From the NCBI RefSeq assembly GCF_900458895.1, contig NZ_LR962863.1, positions 2,108,001 to 2,172,000 of the forward strand: DNA of 64,000 nucleotides. Reading direction: 5' to 3'. A program made the position numbers and the translations under genes. The notes under the pieces are model-generated. The model ran no database searches. It was not told where the DNA came from and worked only from the letters and a program-made list of their open reading frames with translations. Source of the stretch: Staphylococcus schleiferi. Its GTDB lineage: Bacteria; Bacillota; Bacilli; Staphylococcales; Staphylococcaceae. This document shows, piece after piece, positions 6,642 to 18,591 of this stretch. Every line of letters starts with the position of its first letter. Position 1 is the stretch's first letter.

Positions 6642-7422
6642 TTATTTTGTTGCGTATTTCTTCTCAAATGCAATGGGAGTCATATAATTCAACGTTGAAT
6701 GTACGCTTTTAGAATTGTAAAAAGTAAGGATATATTCCACAATGCTAAACATCGCTTCATTCCTAGTTTTATAGTTCTGATGATGTATCAATTCCTTTTT
6801 GATGATACTATGAAAAGATTCTATACATGCGTTGTCGTAACAGTTTCCTTTACGACTCATACTGCTCTAAATCCCTTTTTCACGTAGTAAATTTTGATAC
6901 TCTATTGAGGCATATTGACTTCCTTGATTTGAGTGATGGATTAGGCCTTCTCTAGGTTCTTGAATTGTATACGCTTTGTTTAAAGCTGACATCACAAATT
7001 CTTTTGTCATACGTGATGTCAGCCACCCAAACGCTGCCAGGTTGTGATACTTTAAACTGTTGGTTCAATAAATTGGGGTATACAGGAAGATGATGCTTTA
7101 AATGGGTCGTTGCCTTGTATTTCTTTTTTGTGATAGACCTTATACCGAGTTCCTTCATCATTCTACTGACAGTTCTTTGAGTTACAGTATGTCCGTGACG
7201 CCTTAGTATTTGTGTGATTTTGGGGCTTCCGTATCGTTTTTGACTTTTAATATAGATTTGATAAATATACTTCTTCAAACCTTCACGCTTCACTGTACGC
7301 GTACTTGGCTTGCGATTTTTCCAATCATAATAACCACTTCTCGAAACACCTAGTACTTGGCACATCTTTACGACACGAAATTCATGTCGGTGTTCATAGA
7401 TAAACTTATATATTACTTCTGG
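6642..7422 (-). pseudogene. IS3/IS150-type transposase orfB, internally deleted
   Basis: The N-terminal part reads [19 protein letters not shown] and continues to SVWVADITY, the region of the first catalytic Asp. The frame then jumps: the next recognisable stretch ([14 protein letters not shown], then GLIHHSNQGSQYAS) is in another frame, and the C-terminal piece is MSRKGNCYDNACIESFHS with the catalytic Glu. The block between the first and second Asp regions is therefore partly deleted, and a frameshift or stop also separates the last piece. The C-terminal NSKSVHSTLNYMTP motif is typical of IS150 OrfB. Confidence 0.85.
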
Positions 7423-7700
7423 TCTTTGGCAAAGATGTGCATAGCCTTTTTTAAGATTTTATTTTCTTCCTCTAAGTCTCTTAATCGCTTTTCTAAATCT
7501 GCTTCTACTTGTGTATTTGACGTACGTTTACCGCTACCAACAAAACCTTTTTCACCGTCTTTACGGTATATACTCAGCCATCTTGTTAAGGTTTGAATAG
7601 GAATATCTAAATCTCTCGAAATTTCTGAGGCACGTCTCCCTGATTCTACTCATTGAATTGCTTCCATTTTAAAGCTATAATCGTATTTTCTTCTCGCCAT
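7423..7700 (-). pseudogene. IS3/IS150-type transposase orfA with in-frame stop
   Basis: The frame reads MARRKYDYSFKMEAIQ, then TGA, then VESGRRASEISRDLDIP, a helix-turn-helix. It ends in a leucine-zipper-like segment ([19 protein letters not shown]) as expected for OrfA. The single TGA early in the frame inactivates it. OrfB follows in the usual overlapping arrangement. Confidence 0.85.
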
Positions 7701-7770
7701 CACTGACACTCCTATAAATTGATTTTTTTTACTATACATTAAATTCCTATCAACTTACTGTGTCCGTTTC

Positions 7771-7920
7771 TTAGTCTCGCATCACTTCTTCTCTTGAACA
7801 ATATATATAACTATCATCATTAGGACATAGTTCATAATGATTCAAAATACTACAAGGAATGCATAATTTATATTTATATTCTTCTATATCAAAAATAAAC
7901 CACCTGCTTAATAATTTGAT
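7771..7920 (-). pseudogene. Cys-rich open frame, remnant or very small gene
   Basis: A 50-codon open stretch without an ATG lies between the IS and the HTH_42 gene. It reads on as FIFDIEEYKYKLCIPCSIL and ends YIYCSREEVMRD. It contains four cysteines (C-x2-C-x8-C-x9-C). AGGTGG sits just upstream of an ATT codon, so a rare start is conceivable. It may instead be the tail of a gene cut by the IS. No family recognised. Confidence 0.3.
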
Positions 7921-7960
7921 CTAGTAATTTTTTTAGCACCTACTTTTTTAGCATAATATT

Positions 7961-9025
7961 CTAAAAGACAAAACACTTTTTTTCTATTTTTCTATTTCTA
8001 TATGCTTGTAGGATATTTAATGATAAAACTATTAATTCATTCTCCTCTCTATTGTAATTTAAATCTATAGTGCCTATTAAATTATTTTCTATTAAAATTG
8101 GCAAAGCATAATAGCCATTTTTCCTCTTTTTTTTAGGAATATAAGACTCTAATCTATATTCAAAAGAAAAAAGTTTTTTTAATCGTGTTCTATTATAAAT
8201 TAAATTATCAAAAGGAGATAAAAACACATTTTTAGATACTATTTCACTACTTTGATTATTAAAACACTCAATATCTTTGTTAAGTATATAATGCTTTTCA
8301 GCTTCATTAAACAAAGCATTCACTTCATTTAACTTCTCTAATTCACTTAAAACCTCTTGAACGTCGTTAATTTTCACTTTCCATTCAAATGCTATTTCCT
8401 TAGCTGTTAATACACCTAATCCTTCAAGAGAACACAACACATAATATTTTAAAGATTCCTTATAGCTATACGAATTATCTATAGTTTCTTTTTTATATAG
8501 ATACCTTTGAAAATTCTTATCTCTTAAAACTCCTATCTGTCCCGTTCTAAATAAAAAATCTGTTAAATCTTGTATTTTGCCTTTTTTCCACCCTTTAGAC
8601 TTATTATACTTATAGATGTTAGTTAATTCTTTAAACGATAATAGCGTATTTTCTGAAATAGACTCTAATATCTTTTCCATTAAATCAAAATCGTCTGTGT
8701 TATAAGACCTTTTATATTTTTCATAGAAGCTAGCCTGCCTCCAAAAATGTTTATTATCATCTTGCATATTATTTATAGTTAGCGCTCTACTATAATTTTC
8801 ACTTATTTTAAATTTTTCATAACATTTTAATAAATCTTCTTGCTCATAACTTTTAATTCTATTTACAAAATACAAATCTTGGGTCTTAAGAAAAACGTTA
8901 ATACTATCTAACTGAACTATACCTATATTATCAAGAGCATCATATATATCAGTAAAATAATTACCTTTATTTAACTTCTGTTTGAATATACTAAAATTTT
9001 TAATTTGTTTGTTTGATATTTGCAT
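7961..9025 (-). CDS. HTH_42 (YcaQ/AlkX/AlkZ-type) DNA glycosylase, C-terminus frameshifted
   Basis: Reads as 354 residues. The fold is recognisable: the N-terminal block LDNIGIVQLDSINVF carries the catalytic-type Q-L-D motif at about residues 38-40. The C-terminal block FLSPFDNLIYNRTRLKKLF ... GYYALPILI ... IGTIDLN is the family hallmark. E. coli YcaQ (AlkX) and Streptomyces AlkZ unhook DNA interstrand crosslinks; AlkZ is a self-resistance protein of the azinomycin cluster. The start at 9025 follows AGAGG and overlaps the MFS gene by 26 bases. The current stop seems premature: one extra T in the TTTT run near 7963 would restore LEYYAKKVGAKKITRSNY, ending at 7908, a plausible natural tail. Enzymatic activity is inferred. 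Confidence 0.8.
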   Translation of the reverse strand: MQISNKQIKNFSIFKQKLNKGNYFTDIYDALDNIGIVQLDSINVFLKTQDLYFVNRIKSYEQEDLLKCYEKFKISENYSRALTINNMQDDNKHFWRQASFYEKYKRSYNTDDFDLMEKILESISENTLLSFKELTNIYKYNKSKGWKKGKIQDLTDFLFRTGQIGVLRDKNFQRYLYKKETIDNSYSYKESLKYYVLCSLEGLGVLTAKEIAFEWKVKINDVQEVLSELEKLNEVNALFNEAEKHYILNKDIECFNNQSSEIVSKNVFLSPFDNLIYNRTRLKKLFSFEYRLESYIPKKKRKNGYYALPILIENNLIGTIDLNYNREENELIVLSLNILQAYRNRKIEKKCFVF

Positions 9026-10202
9026 AAACACCTCTGATTATAATCGAAAAAGCAACAATTGTTATTAAAATTGTTGATAAAATAACAATAGTATACTTAA
9101 CACCTAGTACATTAACTATAAAACCTGATAAAGCCAATCCCAAAGGATAGCCTGCTGTACTAAAAGAATAAAATAAAGAAAATATTTCCCCTTGATTTTG
9201 CTCAGGTATATTTTCTTGTATATAAGTCTTAGAAAATATCATTGCTGGAACAGAAATAATGCCAAATAATAATGCTAGCAAAAGAAAGAAAAATTCATTA
9301 TTAGATATACCTATAGCAAAAAATATTACTCCATGCGCTATGATAGAAAAATCAATGATCTTTCTATTACTTCTAACTTTTAACTTAGAAATAATAACAC
9401 TTCCTACAACTATGCCTAAAGACAAAAGAGATGAAAATAAAGAAAATATTATTGGACTATCACCAATTTCACTCTTAATAAATATAGGTATCACAACCGG
9501 ATATACCCCCCATATAAATAGATTCCAAAATGAGTTATTTATTAACAATGATAAAACACTAGTTTCTTTTAAAATTTTTTTCAAAGAATAATTTTTTGAA
9601 ATATCTTTTTGAGCTATGTCACTAAGTTTTTTATTATCCAATTTATTTATAAGTTTTAAAAATAGAAATAATGAAATTAAAAATGTAATTGCATTCACTA
9701 TAAAACCAATACTATTATAATGAAAATTCAAGAAAATCCCTGAAATAATCGGCCCTAGAATAAGCGCTATATCAAATTGGATATAATGAATACTATTAGC
9801 GGATATTAACTCATTTTTATTAACAACTTTAGGTATTAAAATATTTGATAATATATCATTAGCTGATGAAAACGTACCCGAAATAAAGAGTAAAATGAAT
9901 ACTATATATACATTATTATCGTATAATAATATTGGTATTATAAAAAACACTATAGCTCTTGATAAAAACGATATATATGTAATTATTTTTATATTTTTAT
10001 CAATTAGTCTCCCAATTAATGGAGAAAATAGAATTGCAGGTACTTCTAAACAAAGTAATGCGATGGCAATATAAATAGGTTGATTAGTTATAGAATATAT
10101 CAACCAAACTAAAAATAAATTAGCCATGGCATCTCCTAGATTTGAAATAAAACTACCACTAATTAAACTCAAAAAATTCTTTTGTTTTAAAATTGAAATC
10201 AT
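9000..10202 (-). CDS. MFS efflux transporter (EntS/Mef-like, MFS_3)
   Basis: A 400-residue, about 12-helix transporter. The start FLSLISGSFISNLGDAM and the helix 2-3 loop PLIGRLIDKN match the drug-exporter branch that includes macrolide Mef and siderophore EntS pumps. RBS GCGAGG lies 10 bases before the ATG, 4 bases after the DUF6065-like gene stop. The HTH_42 gene starts inside its 3' end. Very AT-rich codon use (many Ile, Asn, Lys codons ending in A/T) separates it from the flanking core genes. Substrate unknown; its position suggests export of a compound made or met by this operon. Confidence 0.85.
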   Translation of the reverse strand: MISILKQKNFLSLISGSFISNLGDAMANLFLVWLIYSITNQPIYIAIALLCLEVPAILFSPLIGRLIDKNIKIITYISFLSRAIVFFIIPILLYDNNVYIVFILLFISGTFSSANDILSNILIPKVVNKNELISANSIHYIQFDIALILGPIISGIFLNFHYNSIGFIVNAITFLISLFLFLKLINKLDNKKLSDIAQKDISKNYSLKKILKETSVLSLLINNSFWNLFIWGVYPVVIPIFIKSEIGDSPIIFSLFSSLLSLGIVVGSVIISKLKVRSNRKIIDFSIIAHGVIFFAIGISNNEFFFLLLALLFGIISVPAMIFSKTYIQENIPEQNQGEIFSLFYSFSTAGYPLGLALSGFIVNVLGVKYTIVILSTILITIVAFSIIIRGVYANIKQTN

Positions 10203-10206
10203 TATA

Positions 10207-10857
10207 CTAACCTCGCAGGTATTCTACATTTAACTTATAATCCAATTTAACGACATATATTCGACACAATAAATCGCCTTTATTTATTTTATGTTCAACT
10301 ATAGGTTCTATTGCTATAGATAATCCCAAACCAGTGTCATTCATCTCTTTTAATTTTTTTTCATTTAAAATACCAGGATGAATTCTAAATCTTGATTCTC
10401 CTTCAATTGGTTGTATTAATATTGAATAGCCTTCTGGGATCTCTATTCCCCATCCTAACCTCCATTCTAAACTACCTTGCCCATTAGGTATAAACACAGG
10501 ATGCCAACTTCCATTGCTGAAATATTGATATAACCTAAACCAATTTGAATTTCGAATACCGATATATATTTTTTCTCTTTTTATCCAAAAAGTAGTTTCA
10601 GTAAACTCTGATAGTTTGTTTAATTCCATCTCATCATTTACGCTAACTTGAGTTTCTACCAATGGTTCACACGTAATATCAAATGGTGCCAAGACTTCTA
10701 AAGATGTCTCTATAGCTAACTTATACGGCCAACACTTTCCTTTAACTCTTTCTTGAGAAAGCCATCTTAATCCTTCGTATTGATTTGAAAGATTTCCAGT
10801 AGCTCCTTTTTTTGGTAATTCAGTCCATTTAAAAAGTTCTAGTATATTTATATTCAT
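10207..10857 (-). CDS. Uncharacterised protein resembling the DUF6065 family
   Basis: A 216-residue soluble protein with no signal peptide. It has LRWLSQERVKGKCWPYKLAI followed by LEVLAPFDI, then WRLGWGIEIPEGYSILIQP and a C-terminal DLLCRIYVVKL. This pattern (R-x-C-x-P near an N-terminal beta core, then a W-G and EGYS segment) recalls DUF6065, a family with no established reaction; the match is from memory and uncertain. I chose ATG 10857 because GAGGAG lies 8-9 bases upstream; a longer reading frame would overlap the terminator and the preceding gene. Second gene of the island operon. Confidence 0.55.
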   Translation of the reverse strand: MNINILELFKWTELPKKGATGNLSNQYEGLRWLSQERVKGKCWPYKLAIETSLEVLAPFDITCEPLVETQVSVNDEMELNKLSEFTETTFWIKREKIYIGIRNSNWFRLYQYFSNGSWHPVFIPNGQGSLEWRLGWGIEIPEGYSILIQPIEGESRFRIHPGILNEKKLKEMNDTGLGLSIAIEPIVEHKINKGDLLCRIYVVKLDYKLNVEYLRG

Positions 10858-10879
10858 ACTATTAATCTCCTCAAAACTA

Positions 10880-10906
10880 TAAAAAAGGGAGTATCCCCCT
10901 TTTTTA
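10880..10906 (-). terminator. Intra-operon hairpin after the beta-propeller gene
   Basis: On the minus strand AAAAAAGGGGGATACTCCC followed by TTTTTTATAG forms an 11-bp stem with a short loop and T-run. It starts at the stop codon of the propeller gene. It is placed to terminate most transcripts after gene 1, giving lower expression of the three downstream genes. Confidence 0.75.
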
Positions 10907-11893
10907 TACCGTTGTACTATTGTTAGTTTCATAAGTATTAATAAGTGTTTCTGAACTTGGTTCATATATAGATACACTACAAGGTCCTAATCCTGTTTTA
11001 ACATATCCCTTTCTTTCTAACGTTTTCAGGTCTACTACAGATAAACCGTCGCCATCTTGATTATATTTACTAATCATAGTTCGTTTAAAAGCTGAAACAT
11101 ATAGAGTTTCGCTTTCCTCATCAATTTTTAATCCTCTAGGTGTAGGACCAACATCAATATGTTTTATTTCTTCATTTTTATTTATATCAATTGCACTTAC
11201 TGAATTCGAAGCTTCACAACTTACATATACAAGGTTTTTATAAGGATCAGCTATAACAGCTCTTGGTCCATAGCCTACGGGTATTTCAGTAATCAATGTC
11301 TTTTTATGCAAATCAATAACACTTACAGAATGCCTATGAGTATTTGCTGTATAGACATTATAGTTTTTGTGTGTAAATGCGTGATATGGTTTAGCATTTT
11401 CGCCTAATTCAACTATTGAACTAATTTTTGAATCTAAAATATTCTCACCTAATTCAATAATATAAATACTATCTGAACCAGAGCAAGGTACACTTAAATA
11501 TTTCCCATCTGAAGATACAGATAAAAATCTAGGGTTCTCGCCAACCTTAATACGTGAAATTTCCTGATCATTTTCAGTTGAAACAATAGAAACATCGCTT
11601 GATCCCGAATTAGAAACATATATAATTTCTTTGTTAGGATCGACACATACCCCCCTAGGAGCCAGTCCTACTTTGATTTTGCTATCTTCTTTGTTATTTG
11701 TAAGGTCTATTTTTGAAATTGTATCACCTGCGCAATTACAAACGTAACCATAAGGCAAGCTTTTGTGTAAAGCCATACTACCTCTAGGACTCCCTCCTAC
11801 AGGAATCCTAGTTAATTCGCTCTCCTGCTTACTACTAATTACAGAAATGTCATTTGAATCAGTATTAGTTACATAAATAAACTTTTCTTTCAT
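10904..11893 (-). CDS. YVTN-repeat beta-propeller protein (YncE-like)
   Basis: A 329-residue protein made of about seven repeats of roughly 42 residues, each ending like DISVIS...ELTRIPVGGSPRG. Examples are YVTNTDSNDISVIS, YVSNSGSSDVSIVS, YTANTHRHSVSVID and YVSCEASNSVSAID. This is the YVTN/YncE seven-bladed propeller. No signal peptide or anchor is visible, so it is probably cytoplasmic, unlike E. coli YncE. Perfect RBS GGAGGTGTTTTC before ATG. It is the first gene of the operon and is followed by a terminator-like hairpin. Function unknown; propellers commonly bind proteins, DNA or small ligands, and some are enzymes. Confidence 0.85.
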   Translation of the reverse strand: MKEKFIYVTNTDSNDISVISSKQESELTRIPVGGSPRGSMALHKSLPYGYVCNCAGDTISKIDLTNNKEDSKIKVGLAPRGVCVDPNKEIIYVSNSGSSDVSIVSTENDQEISRIKVGENPRFLSVSSDGKYLSVPCSGSDSIYIIELGENILDSKISSIVELGENAKPYHAFTHKNYNVYTANTHRHSVSVIDLHKKTLITEIPVGYGPRAVIADPYKNLVYVSCEASNSVSAIDINKNEEIKHIDVGPTPRGLKIDEESETLYVSAFKRTMISKYNQDGDGLSVVDLKTLERKGYVKTGLGPCSVSIYEPSSETLINTYETNNSTTV

Positions 11894-11989
11894 GAAAACA
11901 CCTCCATTTTTATACTTTAATTAATATACTAAAAATTCTGAAAAGTCAACTAAATATACAAAAATAGTAATTATTCATATAAAATGTCC

Positions 11990-12199
11990 TTATTCGAATT
12001 TTTTATTAATATACGTATCTGTCATTGCTATGGGTTGTCTTGCAAAATTAAATTCATAATATAATTTGTTCATATCCTTGATATAGTAGCTACCAGCAAC
12101 GGAAAAACTATTCTAACAACTCATTAAATACAATAATTCGTTATCGCTAACCTTCTTTAACGCTACATCTTTAGAATTTTTATCTATACTCAATAACAC
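11990..12199 (-). pseudogene. Small ORF (70 codons) with an internal amber stop
   Basis: GTG at 12199 follows AGGAGGTTTGAC, a strong RBS. The frame reads LLSIDKNSKDVALKKVSDNE to MSC, then TAG at 12113-12115. It continues in the same frame as NSFSVAGSYYIKDMNKLYYE and ends INKKFE. The TAG most likely replaced a TGG tryptophan codon. It starts 22 bases after the restored DUF1002 stop and is probably the last gene of that module. No family recognised. Confidence 0.55.
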
Positions 12200-12220
12200 G
12201 TCAAACCTCCTATTCATTGA

Positions 12221-13198
12221 TTAAAAAATACGATTAAATAAACTTGAAATGAAATCTATGATAGTCTGAATAATTTGTAAAATGCTATCCCAAATTTTTT
12301 GTAAAAAGTTTCTATTTTCTTCTGTGTTTAAATCTTTAGCTTTTTCCTTAGCTTTATCTAATAAATCGCCTGAATTTTTTCTATACTTTTCAAAGCGACT
12401 TTTGCATTTTTAGCAAATGCTTTAGGATCTGAAGTTAAAGCGTTAGAATTTGCAACATTAGCCCTATTTTCAGTTATCATTTGTTTTTGATTATCTGTTA
12501 AAGTTCCAGACAATCCTCTTTCATCAAGCACTTTATTAACTATGTCTTCAACTTGTTTTGGCGTAATCTGTTCATCTTGTTTTTTCTTTATATCTGCTAA
12601 CTGTTGTTTAATATCTGCTATAGACGCGTTTAAAGCTTCGTCTGAATACCCATATTTATTTTGATTTTCTTCAGATATTGAAGTTAAATCTTGCATTTCT
12701 TTATTTGAGTTTTGGATATCTTCAGAATTTAATTTGTTACCTTTTTCTTCATAAGCTTTATAAATACCTGCTAACGCACCTTCTCCAGTAACTTTTTCAA
12801 CTGAAGCTATATGAATTTCAGCGTCTTTAATACCTGCTGTGATTGACGCGTTTTGATATTGTTCACTTGTAACCTTTGTAATGTTATCAGGTGTGTCTAT
12901 TTCCACATCTACACCATTACCCCATTTTTTATGCTTAATAGTTGTACTTGAATATATATAACTTAAATTACCACTATTAGGAATATATTTACTAACGTCA
13001 TCTGTTGTTACGCTGTATGTTTCATAGTCATCTTTCACGCCTAAATCATCTTCAGTCTGTTGTAAACCTTGACCTTCAAGATCAGCGCCCTTTATAAAAA
13101 ACAGGCTTATCCCAATCTTACTTTTTTTCTGCTTTGGCCATACCTGGAACAGTTAATAATAATGTTACTACTGCTGTACTAACCATTAATTTTTTCAT
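12221..13198 (-). pseudogene. Secreted DUF1002-family protein, frame broken near both ends
   Basis: The start ATG 13198 gives a signal peptide MKKLMVSTAVVTLLLTVPGM-AKA that runs into TAA at 13118-13120. The main frame then resumes with GADLEGQGLQQTEDDLGVKD and continues through the DUF1002 body (YSVTTDDVSKYIP, ALAGIYKAYEEKG). Near 12380 the frame is lost again in an A run: the natural C-terminus (KYRKNSGDLLDKAKEKAKD, ending IIDFISSLFNRIF) lies one frame over and stops at 12221. With one base corrected at each end the gene would encode about 325 residues. DUF1002 proteins are exported proteins of unknown role. It lies 16 bases after the nuclease gene. Confidence 0.8.
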
Positions 13199-13214: not shown

Positions 13215-14075
13215 TTAATAGTTATAACTACCGTCCTTATAATTAATCTGAACGCCTTCTTGTTTATTCGCAATCCAAACATTGATATTTATTGTTTGGC
13301 CGTCATCATTAATTGAGTAGGCTCTAACGTGTGAACCTCTTGGCACAAGTTCATCATCTTTATAAACGGGCGTAACTTCATAAAACACTTTTGTTTCAGG
13401 ATTATCATACATTGCATTTCTTATTTGCGTTTCAGGATAACCCATGCCCCCACCTTCAGGGTCTTTATTAGATCCAACATTTTGCGCCCTAGTACCTAAT
13501 GTTAAATTATGTGTTTCCATATCTCCGCCCAATGACCAGGCAAGCGAATGAGATTTATTATATATATAACCCCTATACCCATCTAATTGTAATATTTGGT
13601 TGTTTGAGTTCTCGCCTTCCCATGCCTGCTTTTCAGGGTTATATGTTCCATCTTTATACTCCCCAGCTACATGAACACCGTAATCAAATGATGGTCTTTT
13701 TTGTGCTTTTGAAGAATGACTTTGAACAGCTTCATTTGTAATCAACGCTTTAACTTTGCCTGCTCTACCGTATTTATCCAAATCAGGATAATCGGCCCAA
13801 AAACGGTCATTACCTTTTTTATTTAATAAATTTTGATCTTCCTGACTTAATTCTGTCTTGTTGTCGTTTATAAAAGCATAGTTTTCACTATTAGTTTCAG
13901 CACCAATAAGTTTTATATCTTCTTTACTGTTTTTTATTTCAGGTGTATCTGATTTACTGAAATCACTAATAGTTGTTATTAAATTATCAACTTCATTTAT
14001 TGCCTTTTCTGTATCACAACCACTTAATACAATAAGTGATAATAATAAGGCTATCAGTGGTTTAAATATCTTCAT
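13215..14075 (-). CDS. Lipoprotein DNA/RNA non-specific endonuclease (streptodornase-like)
   Basis: A 286-residue predicted surface lipoprotein: the signal peptide ends LIVLSGC, a lipobox with Cys at about residue 20, followed by a low-complexity linker (about 21-90) and a nuclease domain. The core IYNKSHSLAWSLGGDMETHN followed by LTLGTRAQNVGSNKD and GGGMGYPE matches the His-metal finger of streptococcal Spd/EndA-type nucleases; the His in KSHS is the expected general base. RBS AAAGGAG lies 8 bases before ATG. It would act outside the membrane, degrading nucleic acid for nutrition, trap escape or competition. Its partner HTH and DUF1002 genes suggest one transcription unit. Confidence 0.85.
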   Translation of the reverse strand: MKIFKPLIALLLSLIVLSGCDTEKAINEVDNLITTISDFSKSDTPEIKNSKEDIKLIGAETNSENYAFINDNKTELSQEDQNLLNKKGNDRFWADYPDLDKYGRAGKVKALITNEAVQSHSSKAQKRPSFDYGVHVAGEYKDGTYNPEKQAWEGENSNNQILQLDGYRGYIYNKSHSLAWSLGGDMETHNLTLGTRAQNVGSNKDPEGGGMGYPETQIRNAMYDNPETKVFYEVTPVYKDDELVPRGSHVRAYSINDDGQTININVWIANKQEGVQINYKDGSYNY

Positions 14076-14087
14076 TGCATTACTCCT

Positions 14088-14336
14088 TTACTCAAATTGT
14101 TCAGCAATCCAAAAATATTTAGTGTAACTTTTATTCTCATAATAAAATAAAGGCTTAGGCACAACTTTAAAATTTTTATTTTTGACGTGCATAGTAACAT
14201 TTTGTCTTGTTACACCTAATCTTTCAGCTACTTCATTAACATCTATGAGTTGCTGTGGTTCAGAACTTTCACGAATTAAATCATCTAAATTATTACTTTG
14301 AAGCTTACCAGTATAAATAGTGTTGTTTTTCTCCAT
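14088..14336 (-). CDS. Small helix-turn-helix DNA-binding protein
   Basis: An 82-residue protein with a helix-turn-helix, VNEVAERLGVTRQNVTMHVK (about 36-55), followed by a short wing-like tail (FYYENKSYTKYFWI). I chose ATG 14336 (MEKNNTIYTG) because GAAGG lies about 10 bases upstream. It is the first gene of the nuclease module, 12 bases before the nuclease RBS region. It may regulate the module or be a plasmid-type accessory regulator. An inverted repeat that could be its operator lies upstream at 14391-14430. Confidence 0.65.
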   Translation of the reverse strand: MEKNNTIYTGKLQSNNLDDLIRESSEPQQLIDVNEVAERLGVTRQNVTMHVKNKNFKVVPKPLFYYENKSYTKYFWIAEQFE

Positions 14337-14390
14337 AATATACACACCTTCATTCACTGCTATTTCATGCTGTAAATGGCGGTTATAAAA

Positions 14391-16649: not shown

Positions 16650-18591
16650 TTATTGCTTAATGTCTGCTTTTGGACCTTGTGGATATTTATATTTAGATGG
16701 ATTCACTTTGTTGAAGTCTGGGTTTTTGTAGAAACGGAATAAATCGCCGTTTAAAATTTTATCGCTGACTTCTAAGTCATTTTCAACTTGCTTTTTATTT
16801 TTCTCTAAATCAGCAGGTTGTTTTTCTACTGGATGATTGTCTTTATTGCTGTATACCTTGCCATTTACATACTTGTAGTCTTTTGTTACAAAGTCACCGT
16901 TACGGAATGGCACCACTTGTTTGTGATCTTTAGACAGCATATCCGTACCAAGCATCAAATAGTTTTTCGTATCAATGCCCATTAAGTGAAGTAATGTAGG
17001 CATCACGTCGATTTGACCTGCATATGTTTCATCCACTTTTGGTTCAACACCAGGTGCTTTCAACCAAAAACCAGTCGCATTTAAGTCATTAAACTTCGCT
17101 GGCGTAATCGGTTCACCTAACAATTGAGACATTGCTTTATTATGATTTTCAGAAATACCATAGTGGTCACCATAAATCATGATTACAGAGTTGTCGTATA
17201 AACCACGTTTTTTCAAATCGTTAATAAATGCTTCTAAAGATTCATCGAGGTAACGTGCAGTTTGAATATAACCGTCGACTGTTGGGTTACCTGTATCCCC
17301 TTTCGGAATCGATGCATCTTTATCGCTTAACGTAAATGGATAATGGTTCGTTAACGTAATTAAATGAGAATAGAAAGGTTGTTTTTCTTTATCTAAGTAT
17401 GATGCTGCCTCTTTGAAGAAGACTTTATCTTTTAAACCTAAGTTTTCAAGATTTTCTGGTGACATATCAAAATATGTCGCATCATAAAACTTATCAATAC
17501 CGAAATGACGATATACTTGATCTCTATTCCAAAACGTTTTGTAGTCACCATGCATAACATTCGTCGTATAGCCCTCTTTTTGATGTAAGATAGCTGGTAA
17601 TGATTGGTATGTGTTATCTCCTTTTAAAGAGAAAGCTGAACCTTGTGGTAAACCATAAAGACTGTTATCCATAGTAAACTCAGCGTCCGATGTTTTTACC
17701 TTGACCTGTTTGGTGATAAAAATGCGGATAGTATCTAAAGTCATTATTACCAGATGAAAGTTTGTTCAAAAATGGTGTAACTTCTTGTCCATGAATCTTT
17801 TTATTAATTAAAAAGGTTTGGAAACTTTCTAAGTGGATTTTAATGACGTTTTTACCTTTAGCTTTACCGTAATACTGCATGTTCGGTTCAACATTTTTTT
17901 GCTTAGAGTAATTTAACACTTTTGTTAAATCATCTTCAGAAGCTAGTGCTTTTTGTTGATTGTTTTGAACTGTTTTCACGCCATCATAAACTGTGAAGTT
18001 ATAAGGTCCTAAATATTTGACTAAATATTTATGGTCAAATGTACGTGTTAATAACTCTGGTCGATCTGTTTCTGCAAATGCTAAATTCAAGAAGAATAAA
18101 GCAATCGCTGTTGCCATCACAACTGGCACGAATTTTTTATGGAACACATTTTTACTTAACCATTTTTGTTTAAAAACAAGAATGAATAAGTACACTAATG
18201 TATCAATAAAATAAACAAAGTCATACCATTGGAATGATGCCCCAACAGCACCGCCCATTGAATCCACATTGCTTACTTGGTTTAATGTACTAAAAGTAAT
18301 GAAGTCTGAGAAAAATCGGAAATAGACGACATTGGCATAAAGTAAGAAAGTTAATAAGAAACCTCCTGTAAATATAAACCAATAGGCTTTTCTACCTTTA
18401 AAAAATAAAAACACACTTAATAGCAATGCAACTAAGCTATATGGGTTCATGAGTAAAATTAAGTTTTGTGTTAATCCTTTAACACCAAGTGACAAGTCAA
18501 CATAATAAGCAAAATACGTTTTTAATGCGATGGTTAAAACCGTCAGTAGGAAAAACGCAAATATACCTATTCTTTTTTTTCCTTTTTCCAT
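16650..18591 (-). pseudogene. ltaS: Lipoteichoic acid synthase, one-base frameshift at the active site
   Basis: LtaS polymerises glycerol phosphate from phosphatidylglycerol outside the membrane. The N-terminal part has five membrane helices and the SpsB cleavage context [10 protein letters not shown]. The metal-binding Glu lies in IHLESFQTF. The C-terminal frame carries the remaining active-site motifs ([25 protein letters not shown]). The two frames meet at 17693-17697, where the coding strand reads GGTAAAAACATCGGAC. Removing one A gives GKTSDAEF with the catalytic Thr at position 300; as written, residue 300 is Asn and the frame ends three codons later. Corrected length is 646 residues, the S. 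aureus length. As ltaS is nearly essential, sequencing error or a suppressed mutant are both possible. ATG 18591 follows GGGGG. Confidence 0.93.

Follow-up and report, generated by a model that had tools for sequence, protein, structure and literature searches.

What could unite a β-propeller protein, a protein of predicted dUTPase fold, a major facilitator superfamily (MFS) exporter and a DNA glycosylase in one operon? The question is raised by a 64,000-nucleotide stretch of the Staphylococcus schleiferi genome (contig NZ_LR962863.1, positions 2108001-2172000 of a one-contig 2.52-Mb genome; hereafter 'the window'), in which the four genes lie closely packed on the minus strand in the order propeller, DUF (the predicted dUTPase-fold protein, earlier labelled 'DUF6065-like'), MFS and glycosylase, as read from the open reading frame (ORF) list and the sequence. 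The first-pass annotation of this stretch had proposed that the four genes form one unit dealing with a DNA-damaging metabolite. As we describe here, they are indeed one real, mobile module that is often plasmid-borne, and our tentative reading is that the module protects its carrier. Its features, in window coordinates, are as follows.

11899..11949, minus strand: candidate promoter, read by eye (TTGACT, 17 nt, TATTAA, then a GGAGGT ribosome-binding site)
10904..11893, minus strand: YVTN/YncE-type β-propeller protein, first gene of the operon, 329 aa (ORF, NCBIfam, AlphaFold2)
10881..10904, minus strand: stem-loop directly 3' of the propeller stop codon, 10 pairs and a T-run; probable internal terminator or stabiliser
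10207..10857, minus strand: predicted dUTPase-fold (DUF) protein, 216 aa, best ATG at 10857
9000..10202, minus strand: MFS exporter, 400 aa (Pfam MFS_1)
7961..9025, minus strand: HTH_42 (AlkZ/YcaQ-like) DNA glycosylase, 354 aa, ATG at 9025, QLD motif, YcaQ-like branch

The first-pass description of four AT-rich minus-strand genes with tight spacing holds: the propeller and DUF genes are separated by 46 bases and the DUF and MFS genes by 4 bases, and the MFS and glycosylase genes overlap by 26 bases. The GC fraction is 0.24-0.25 over the glycosylase and MFS genes, 0.30-0.32 over the DUF and propeller genes, and 0.36-0.43 at 2-6 kb. Three of the original product labels were borne out by profile matches, to PF06224 for the glycosylase, to MFS_1 for the exporter (E 7.6e-34) and to a YVTN repeat profile for the propeller. 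An alternative 256-aa ORF for the DUF protein, starting at 10977, overlaps the propeller gene, and the 216-aa version is preferred. The promoter scan was uninformative, with 31 sites found and 33.6 expected; the promoter read by eye is absent from this list, the total of which is no higher than chance, and the scan gives no support to the last three genes having a promoter of their own.

The gene set recurs well beyond Staphylococcus. A blastn search of plasmids with the operon returned one match, a phage-like plasmid of Paenibacillus larvae that carries a YncE-type propeller, an MFS gene in two frames and a glycosylase, without the DUF gene. Searching with the DUF protein (tblastn) matched 18 plasmid records, 17 from Streptomyces and one from Priestia megaterium; gene order was read in eight of these (seven Streptomyces, one Priestia), and propeller, DUF, MFS and glycosylase stand in that order in all eight. 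Plasmids of Gluconobacter oxydans and Burkholderia glumae (for the latter, one of eight listed matches was examined) have the propeller, glycosylase and MFS genes without DUF. Scanning genome contigs with a DUF profile yielded at least 21 loci (later searches found more), and 11 of the 21 hold all four genes by our own profiles. At a Phycisphaerae locus a propeller is followed by a DUF gene that the contig end cuts off; at a Rubellimicrobium locus DUF lies at one contig edge and the propeller at the opposite end, as in a circular element; and in seven loci (Paenibacillus, Cohnella, Brevibacillus) the DUF gene stands without the other three in the fetched stretch.

As a second seed, we ran a propeller profile (E ≤ 1e-80) around genomes chosen from the DUF-profile scan, the genome at the centre being included in each count. 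The profile found 10 of 297 Streptomycetaceae genomes, all ten with the complete module (L018, L091-L099), and two of 200 Micromonosporaceae genomes, both complete; among 398 Bacillota genomes the only hit was the window itself, and among 337 genomes of the class of Rubellimicrobium it was the centre itself. Since the two seed sets have only four loci in common (L017, L018, L020/L093 and L028/L100), the DUF search had no part in finding eight of the Streptomycetaceae loci, which are new. In this family the best propeller match per genome reaches E 4e-156 or better, and the next propeller 2e-91. Overall, co-occurrence on plasmids, at 11 of the 21 DUF loci and in all ten Streptomycetaceae genomes with a propeller match clearly upholds the first-pass view of the four genes as one unit. 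The last two genes vary in order, MFS-glycosylase or glycosylase-MFS.

Actinobacterial copies carry further genes. A 2-oxoglutarate (2OG)-Fe(II) oxygenase (TIGR02466/PF13759) is present in 22 of 26 actinobacterial loci, and a subset of these, in Streptomyces, has a divergent gene of the glyoxalase/bleomycin-resistance family, an ArsR-type regulator and a second propeller. This second propeller gene, a divergent one, lies between the regulator and the glyoxalase-family gene (L006:5439-6401, L044:6401-7402, L097:8123-9103 and others); L005 and L043 have only short matches to it. In L004, L005, L006, L042, L043 and L044 the 290-430 bp gap between the HTH and oxygenase genes shares a similar stretch of DNA, perhaps an operator or promoter, which translates as EQDRIAC / SRIE-LA in different frames. 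A precursor of a ribosomally synthesised and post-translationally modified peptide between regulator and oxygenase was considered and rejected, as the three forward frames of six gaps, compared by eye, have no common peptide. None of the viral contigs matched the DUF profile or the window propeller. A prophage contig (L133) holds a P. larvae-type copy with a propeller frame lacking the N-terminal part and a full-length, unsplit MFS frame; transposase-like ORFs (by eye) lie beside the propeller, and our own profile found no glycosylase match. Another viral contig (L134) encodes a different YVTN protein without module neighbours.

Within Staphylococcus the genes are patchy. We scanned 84 genomes of the genus for the DUF, MFS (E ≤ 1e-60) and glycosylase genes. 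A complete DUF gene occurs only in the source genome, with C-terminal remnants in two others; MFS was found in four genomes, one copy being partial, and the glycosylase likewise in four, one copy being in two fragments and another a weak remnant. Pairwise dN/dS (the ratio of nonsynonymous to synonymous substitution rates), against the window or each other, is 0.13-0.18 for two MFS copies unaccompanied by a complete DUF gene or a glycosylase match, and for a glycosylase unaccompanied by an MFS match at the above cut-off. These copies have therefore mostly evolved under constraint.

Which kind of glycosylase does the module carry? The window protein matches PF06224 (AlkZ-like) over residues 34-335 with E 1.3e-22 and 81.3 bits against a cut-off of 25.9, and has the Q-L-D motif noted earlier, at Q37-L-D39. 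Excerpts of PMC9040887 divide the AlkZ/YcaQ family into (Q/H)xQ and QxD motif classes, and QxD is described as essential in the crosslink-unhooking YcaQ/AlkX in the available part of PMC13303869. We built a tree with 34 sequences labelled as module, 30 from loci with a propeller and four Staphylococcus proteins (P0004-P0007), among which P0004 alone can be tied to a module, and P0005 corresponds to a solitary copy, L038. For the background 54 loci were listed; five of these are module copies already in the tree, L060 and L110 (short contigs) were left out, and so were six weak or partial matches (L058, L063, L067, L068, L072, L075). All 34 module sequences have QLD or QID and fall on the YcaQ-like side, together with Klebsiella YcaQ (L102), and 30 sequences with QxQ, HxQ, HAT or HGS form the other side (support 1.0). 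On motif and tree position, the module glycosylase is thus assigned to the YcaQ-like (YQL) subfamily; a grouping with the antibiotic-cluster, azinomycin-type AlkZ (AZL), the comparison drawn at first, is ruled out by the same two observations.

The initial expectation that the glycosylase stands apart from housekeeping copies holds in part. With matches in just 4/84 Staphylococcus genomes it is not a housekeeping gene in that genus; in Actinobacteria, ten conserved chromosomal YcaQ-like copies sit inside the actinobacterial/proteobacterial module clade (support 0.99). The glycosylases of S. americanisciuri, S. rostri and S. felis are 79-89% identical to that of the window, and those of three Bacillota modules are 33-41% identical to each other. 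The near-identical P0004 (372 aa, 99% identity) has the longer frame that fits the left edge first given for the operon, 7908. The window frame closes at 7961, 18 residues short of P0004 and with its last few residues altered; the frame here may have suffered slight damage or a misreading, and full-length copies exist.

The propeller matches the NCBIfam YVTN repeat TIGR02276 in six stretches (E 9.5e-44). Structure prediction of this protein and the DUF protein, suggested in the first-pass annotation, gave a YVTN propeller and a dUTPase-like fold. The AlphaFold2 model of the propeller (pLDDT 91.5) has 27 strands, read as seven blades, and in Foldseek it matched 1l0q (E 1.2e-21), 3vgz and E. coli YncE with DNA (3vh0). 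By repeat profile and predicted fold we place it among the YVTN/YncE propellers. A virginiamycin-lyase-type propeller is not among the best 50 Foldseek matches listed, which excludes nothing. Among 36 gene-set pairs, the propeller ranks first in conservation in all 35 that allow comparison with another gene, and the exporter is less conserved than the glycosylase in 18 of the 21 pairs having both.

Is the propeller also expressed differently from its neighbours? In all 12 loci compared, namely the window and 11 plasmid stretches with annotation, the junction behind it measures 46-291 bases, and the later junctions of the same loci range from a 32-base overlap to a 4-base gap. This space holds a stem-loop of 10 pairs in the window, 16 in L005 and 18 in L028, with unrelated sequences. 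In the window it ends in a T-run, followed after 23 bases by the next start codon, and is the only terminator-like site found in 7400-12300; because 1.2 such sites are expected there by chance, it is conservation that makes the case for it. We scored a fixed 60-nt span after the propeller stop in 33 loci, close relatives included, with z ≤ -2 as the mark. The mark is reached in 23/33 loci (median -3.27) and in 13 of 21 chosen representatives. Among controls it is reached in 17 of 372 random spans in the same loci, after the DUF gene in 1/29, after the inner MFS or glycosylase gene in 2/31 and after the last gene in 5/32 (Mann-Whitney p 8e-16, a statistic that ignores the relatedness of the loci). 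The window hairpin scores -2.0 on 60 nt and -4.0 on 41 nt. Since structure is kept without sequence, a dosage function can be argued. Internal terminators are reported, in the accessible portion of PMC9045158, for ABC importer operons that produce their binding proteins in excess; by analogy, the hairpin probably gives partial termination or 3'-end protection, leaving the propeller in excess, and such an excess would suggest stoichiometric binding over catalysis.

The DUF protein is the least familiar part. The window protein has no Pfam match, and of 21 relatives one matches PF19541 at E ≤ 0.1 (E 0.01, 15.8 bits against a cut-off of 26.6). The match being below the Pfam cut-off, membership of DUF6065 was rejected, and the original label is hardly supported; what structure prediction gave was the dUTPase-like fold. 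The catalytic motifs of dUTPases are PRSG and (I)DxDYRG. A pattern search found PRSG and DxYRG in 0/94 DUF-protein sequences each, so that an active canonical dUTPase was rejected, and a motif-4-like G[DQ]x[IVLP]A[QRK] in 68/94. The family has a conserved motif of its own, NGxGTxEWRLGW, and the invariant residues C42, W106, N125-G126 and E131-W132. Stand-alone relatives in Paenibacillus, Cohnella and Brevibacillus (L010-L015, L022), three of which (L013, L014, L015) adjoin one recurrent neighbour gene, suggest a second, non-cassette role for the family.

What, then, is the module for? The glycosylase and the exporter point to the handling of a DNA-damaging compound, as first supposed, and the reading we prefer, with rather less than even confidence, is a horizontally transferred cassette that protects against a single class of DNA-damaging small molecules. 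The compound would be bound by an excess of cytosolic propeller and exported by the MFS pump; the YcaQ-type glycosylase would excise damaged or crosslinked bases, and the dUTPase-fold protein would probably deal with the compound in a nucleotide-like form or with a damaged nucleotide. Given an exporter, a lesion-removing glycosylase and an excess propeller, bind, export and repair would be the simplest scheme. Protection is favoured because the linkage spans phyla and plasmids, because the core of propeller, exporter and glycosylase persists without the DUF gene, because no non-ribosomal peptide or polyketide synthase (NRPS/PKS) is annotated within about 7-12 kb in the eight examined four-gene plasmid records, and because the glycosylase keeps its QxD; the conserved propeller with the hairpin behind it and the glyoxalase-family and ArsR-type genes adjoining the Streptomyces module argue in the same direction. 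Several observations weigh on the other side. YcaQ-like proteins are described in the same portion of PMC13303869 as a broad defence against several lesions, not bound to one metabolite. The actinobacterial oxygenase would be no less at home in biosynthesis; about 4 kb downstream of the module, L043 has a P450/cyclodipeptide synthase set, and L004 has a short-chain dehydrogenase/reductase, an oxidoreductase and a hydrolase 3-6 kb downstream. A strongly conserved propeller would also fit an enzyme, and among proteins of the propeller fold are enzymes as well as the DNA-binding YncE of E. coli. Ten of the 33 loci lack a hairpin at z ≤ -2 (L003, L004, L016, L017, L019, L024, L026, L027, L029, L045; that of L003 is cut by the 60-nt span and scores -4.5 on 83 nt). 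Finally, a Tumebacillus locus from the DUF-profile scan has propeller, DUF and MFS without an adjoining glycosylase; in the Tumebacillus avium genome G086 (L009, L052) the only PF06224 protein, away from the module, groups with Bacillota module glycosylases and may serve the module in trans.

The oxygenase in most actinobacterial copies and the lack of a known target compound keep another possible, if less probable, explanation close: a minimal producer cassette, in which the propeller and the dUTPase-fold protein, joined by the 2OG oxygenase in Actinobacteria, would make a genotoxin from some common metabolite, perhaps a nucleoside or nucleotide, for the MFS protein to export, with the glycosylase providing self-immunity. 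Such a role would suit a module that is self-contained on plasmids and also lies just 3' of late genes in the phage-like plasmid; the predicted dUTPase fold suggests a nucleotide-like substrate, and exporter plus glycosylase is a familiar self-resistance pair. The module could itself amount to a small biosynthetic cluster. However, the three-gene form leaves the propeller as sole candidate enzyme, the dUTPase motifs are missing, and YcaQ-like glycosylases are described, in the PMC9040887 excerpts, as always outside Streptomyces clusters. In its boldest version, which we consider unlikely, this would be a phylum-crossing mobile chemical-warfare cassette of three to eight genes making a nucleotide-like genotoxin from ordinary metabolites, with the YVTN propeller and a repurposed dUTPase fold (plus the oxygenase in Actinobacteria) as makers, followed by export, and the QxD glycosylase protecting the carrier; if true, genotoxin and immunity would be packed into a strikingly small system, and one linked to the YcaQ branch. 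We consider it improbable that the module serves DNA repair or the nucleotide pool with no small-molecule toxin involved, the propeller binding DNA, the dUTPase-fold protein cleaning the pool, the glycosylase repairing and the pump exporting waste. The solved YncE-DNA structure among the Foldseek matches, the predicted dUTPase fold and the several lesions acted on by YcaQ-like glycosylases (PMC13303869, same portion) are consistent with such a role, but it hardly accounts for the dedicated exporter that each complete copy has, and the patchy spread (10/297, 2/200, 1/398 and 1/337 genomes) is unlike general repair. Still less credible is a system for phage defence or for conflict between mobile elements: in its favour, the module occurs on plasmids and in prophage sequence, and CRISPR-Cas genes lie near one copy and a restriction endonuclease near another, yet an MFS exporter is unusual for defence and PADLOC gave 0 families for all four proteins (E ≤ 0.01). 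Chance adjacency of unrelated island genes, which the transposase-like ORFs (by eye) on both sides of the window operon (about 6.6-7.7 kb and 14.5-16.5 kb) might have suggested, merits practically no credence; it is already refuted, because the same set is conserved across several phyla and was found with two different seeds.

The surroundings of the operon in the window include several further minus-strand frames. Downstream of the glycosylase, at 7770-7890, lies a short cysteine-rich frame (CIPCSILNHYELCPNDD...) without a clear start codon. A DUF1002 gene at 12240-13190 (Pfam E 1e-43) looks broken, with a signal-peptide-like start and later pieces in other frames (by eye). A lipoprotein-like ORF at 13215-14075 has a DNA/RNA non-specific endonuclease domain (PF13930; phrog_5170, E 8e-29) and adjoins a small HTH gene at 14088-14357, the pair being possible mobile-element remains. 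At 16650-18591 an LtaS-like lipoteichoic acid synthase (by eye) apparently falls into two ORFs (17680-18591, 16650-17744) that overlap in different frames.

How does the module relate to known systems? In line with the first-pass statement that no system with this exact combination was known to have been described, our literature search, supplementary files being outside it, found no description of the four-gene combination and no paper for DUF6065. The parts are of known kinds; the literature searched describes neither their combination nor its occurrence in several phyla, nor the conserved hairpin and the dUTPase fold predicted for the DUF protein. Glycosylases for crosslinked bases have so far been described either as general defence (YcaQ/AlkX) or as antibiotic-cluster self-resistance (AlkZ type). 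A compact mobile module in Staphylococcus, Priestia and Streptomyces (and, without the dUTPase-fold gene, in Burkholderia and Gluconobacter) would imply a widespread, unrecognised genotoxin and offer a genetic handle for finding it, and two uncharacterised families, the propeller set and the dUTPase-fold set, gain a testable joint role.

Set beside dUTPase and DUF6065 (PF19541), the DUF protein resembles them in predicted fold and in the weak match of one relative, but lacks PRSG-like and DxYRG-like motifs and has invariant residues of its own. The propeller shares the YVTN fold of E. coli YncE and other YVTN propellers (Foldseek 1l0q, 3vgz) and, unlike these in general, forms a distinct linked set. 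The stem-loop directly 3' of the first, putative binding-protein gene recalls the ABC importer operons with internal terminators (PMC9045158, as far as accessible), although the module has no ABC importer and its propeller excess is inferred. With AlkZ-type self-resistance (azinomycin; trioxacarcin TxnU/LldU; hedamycin HedH4) the module has in common an HTH_42 glycosylase beside transport genes and a likely protective role against a DNA-damaging compound; it differs in its QxD, YcaQ-side glycosylase in place of QxQ/HxQ, in having no NRPS/PKS cluster in the examined stretches, in its linked propeller and dUTPase-fold partners, and in occurring also in Staphylococcus, Priestia and Proteobacteria. 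The YcaQ/AlkX (YQL) crosslink glycosylases share the QxD motif and tree position; unlike them, the module copies are patchy, often plasmid-borne and, in Actinobacteria, additional to other PF06224 copies.

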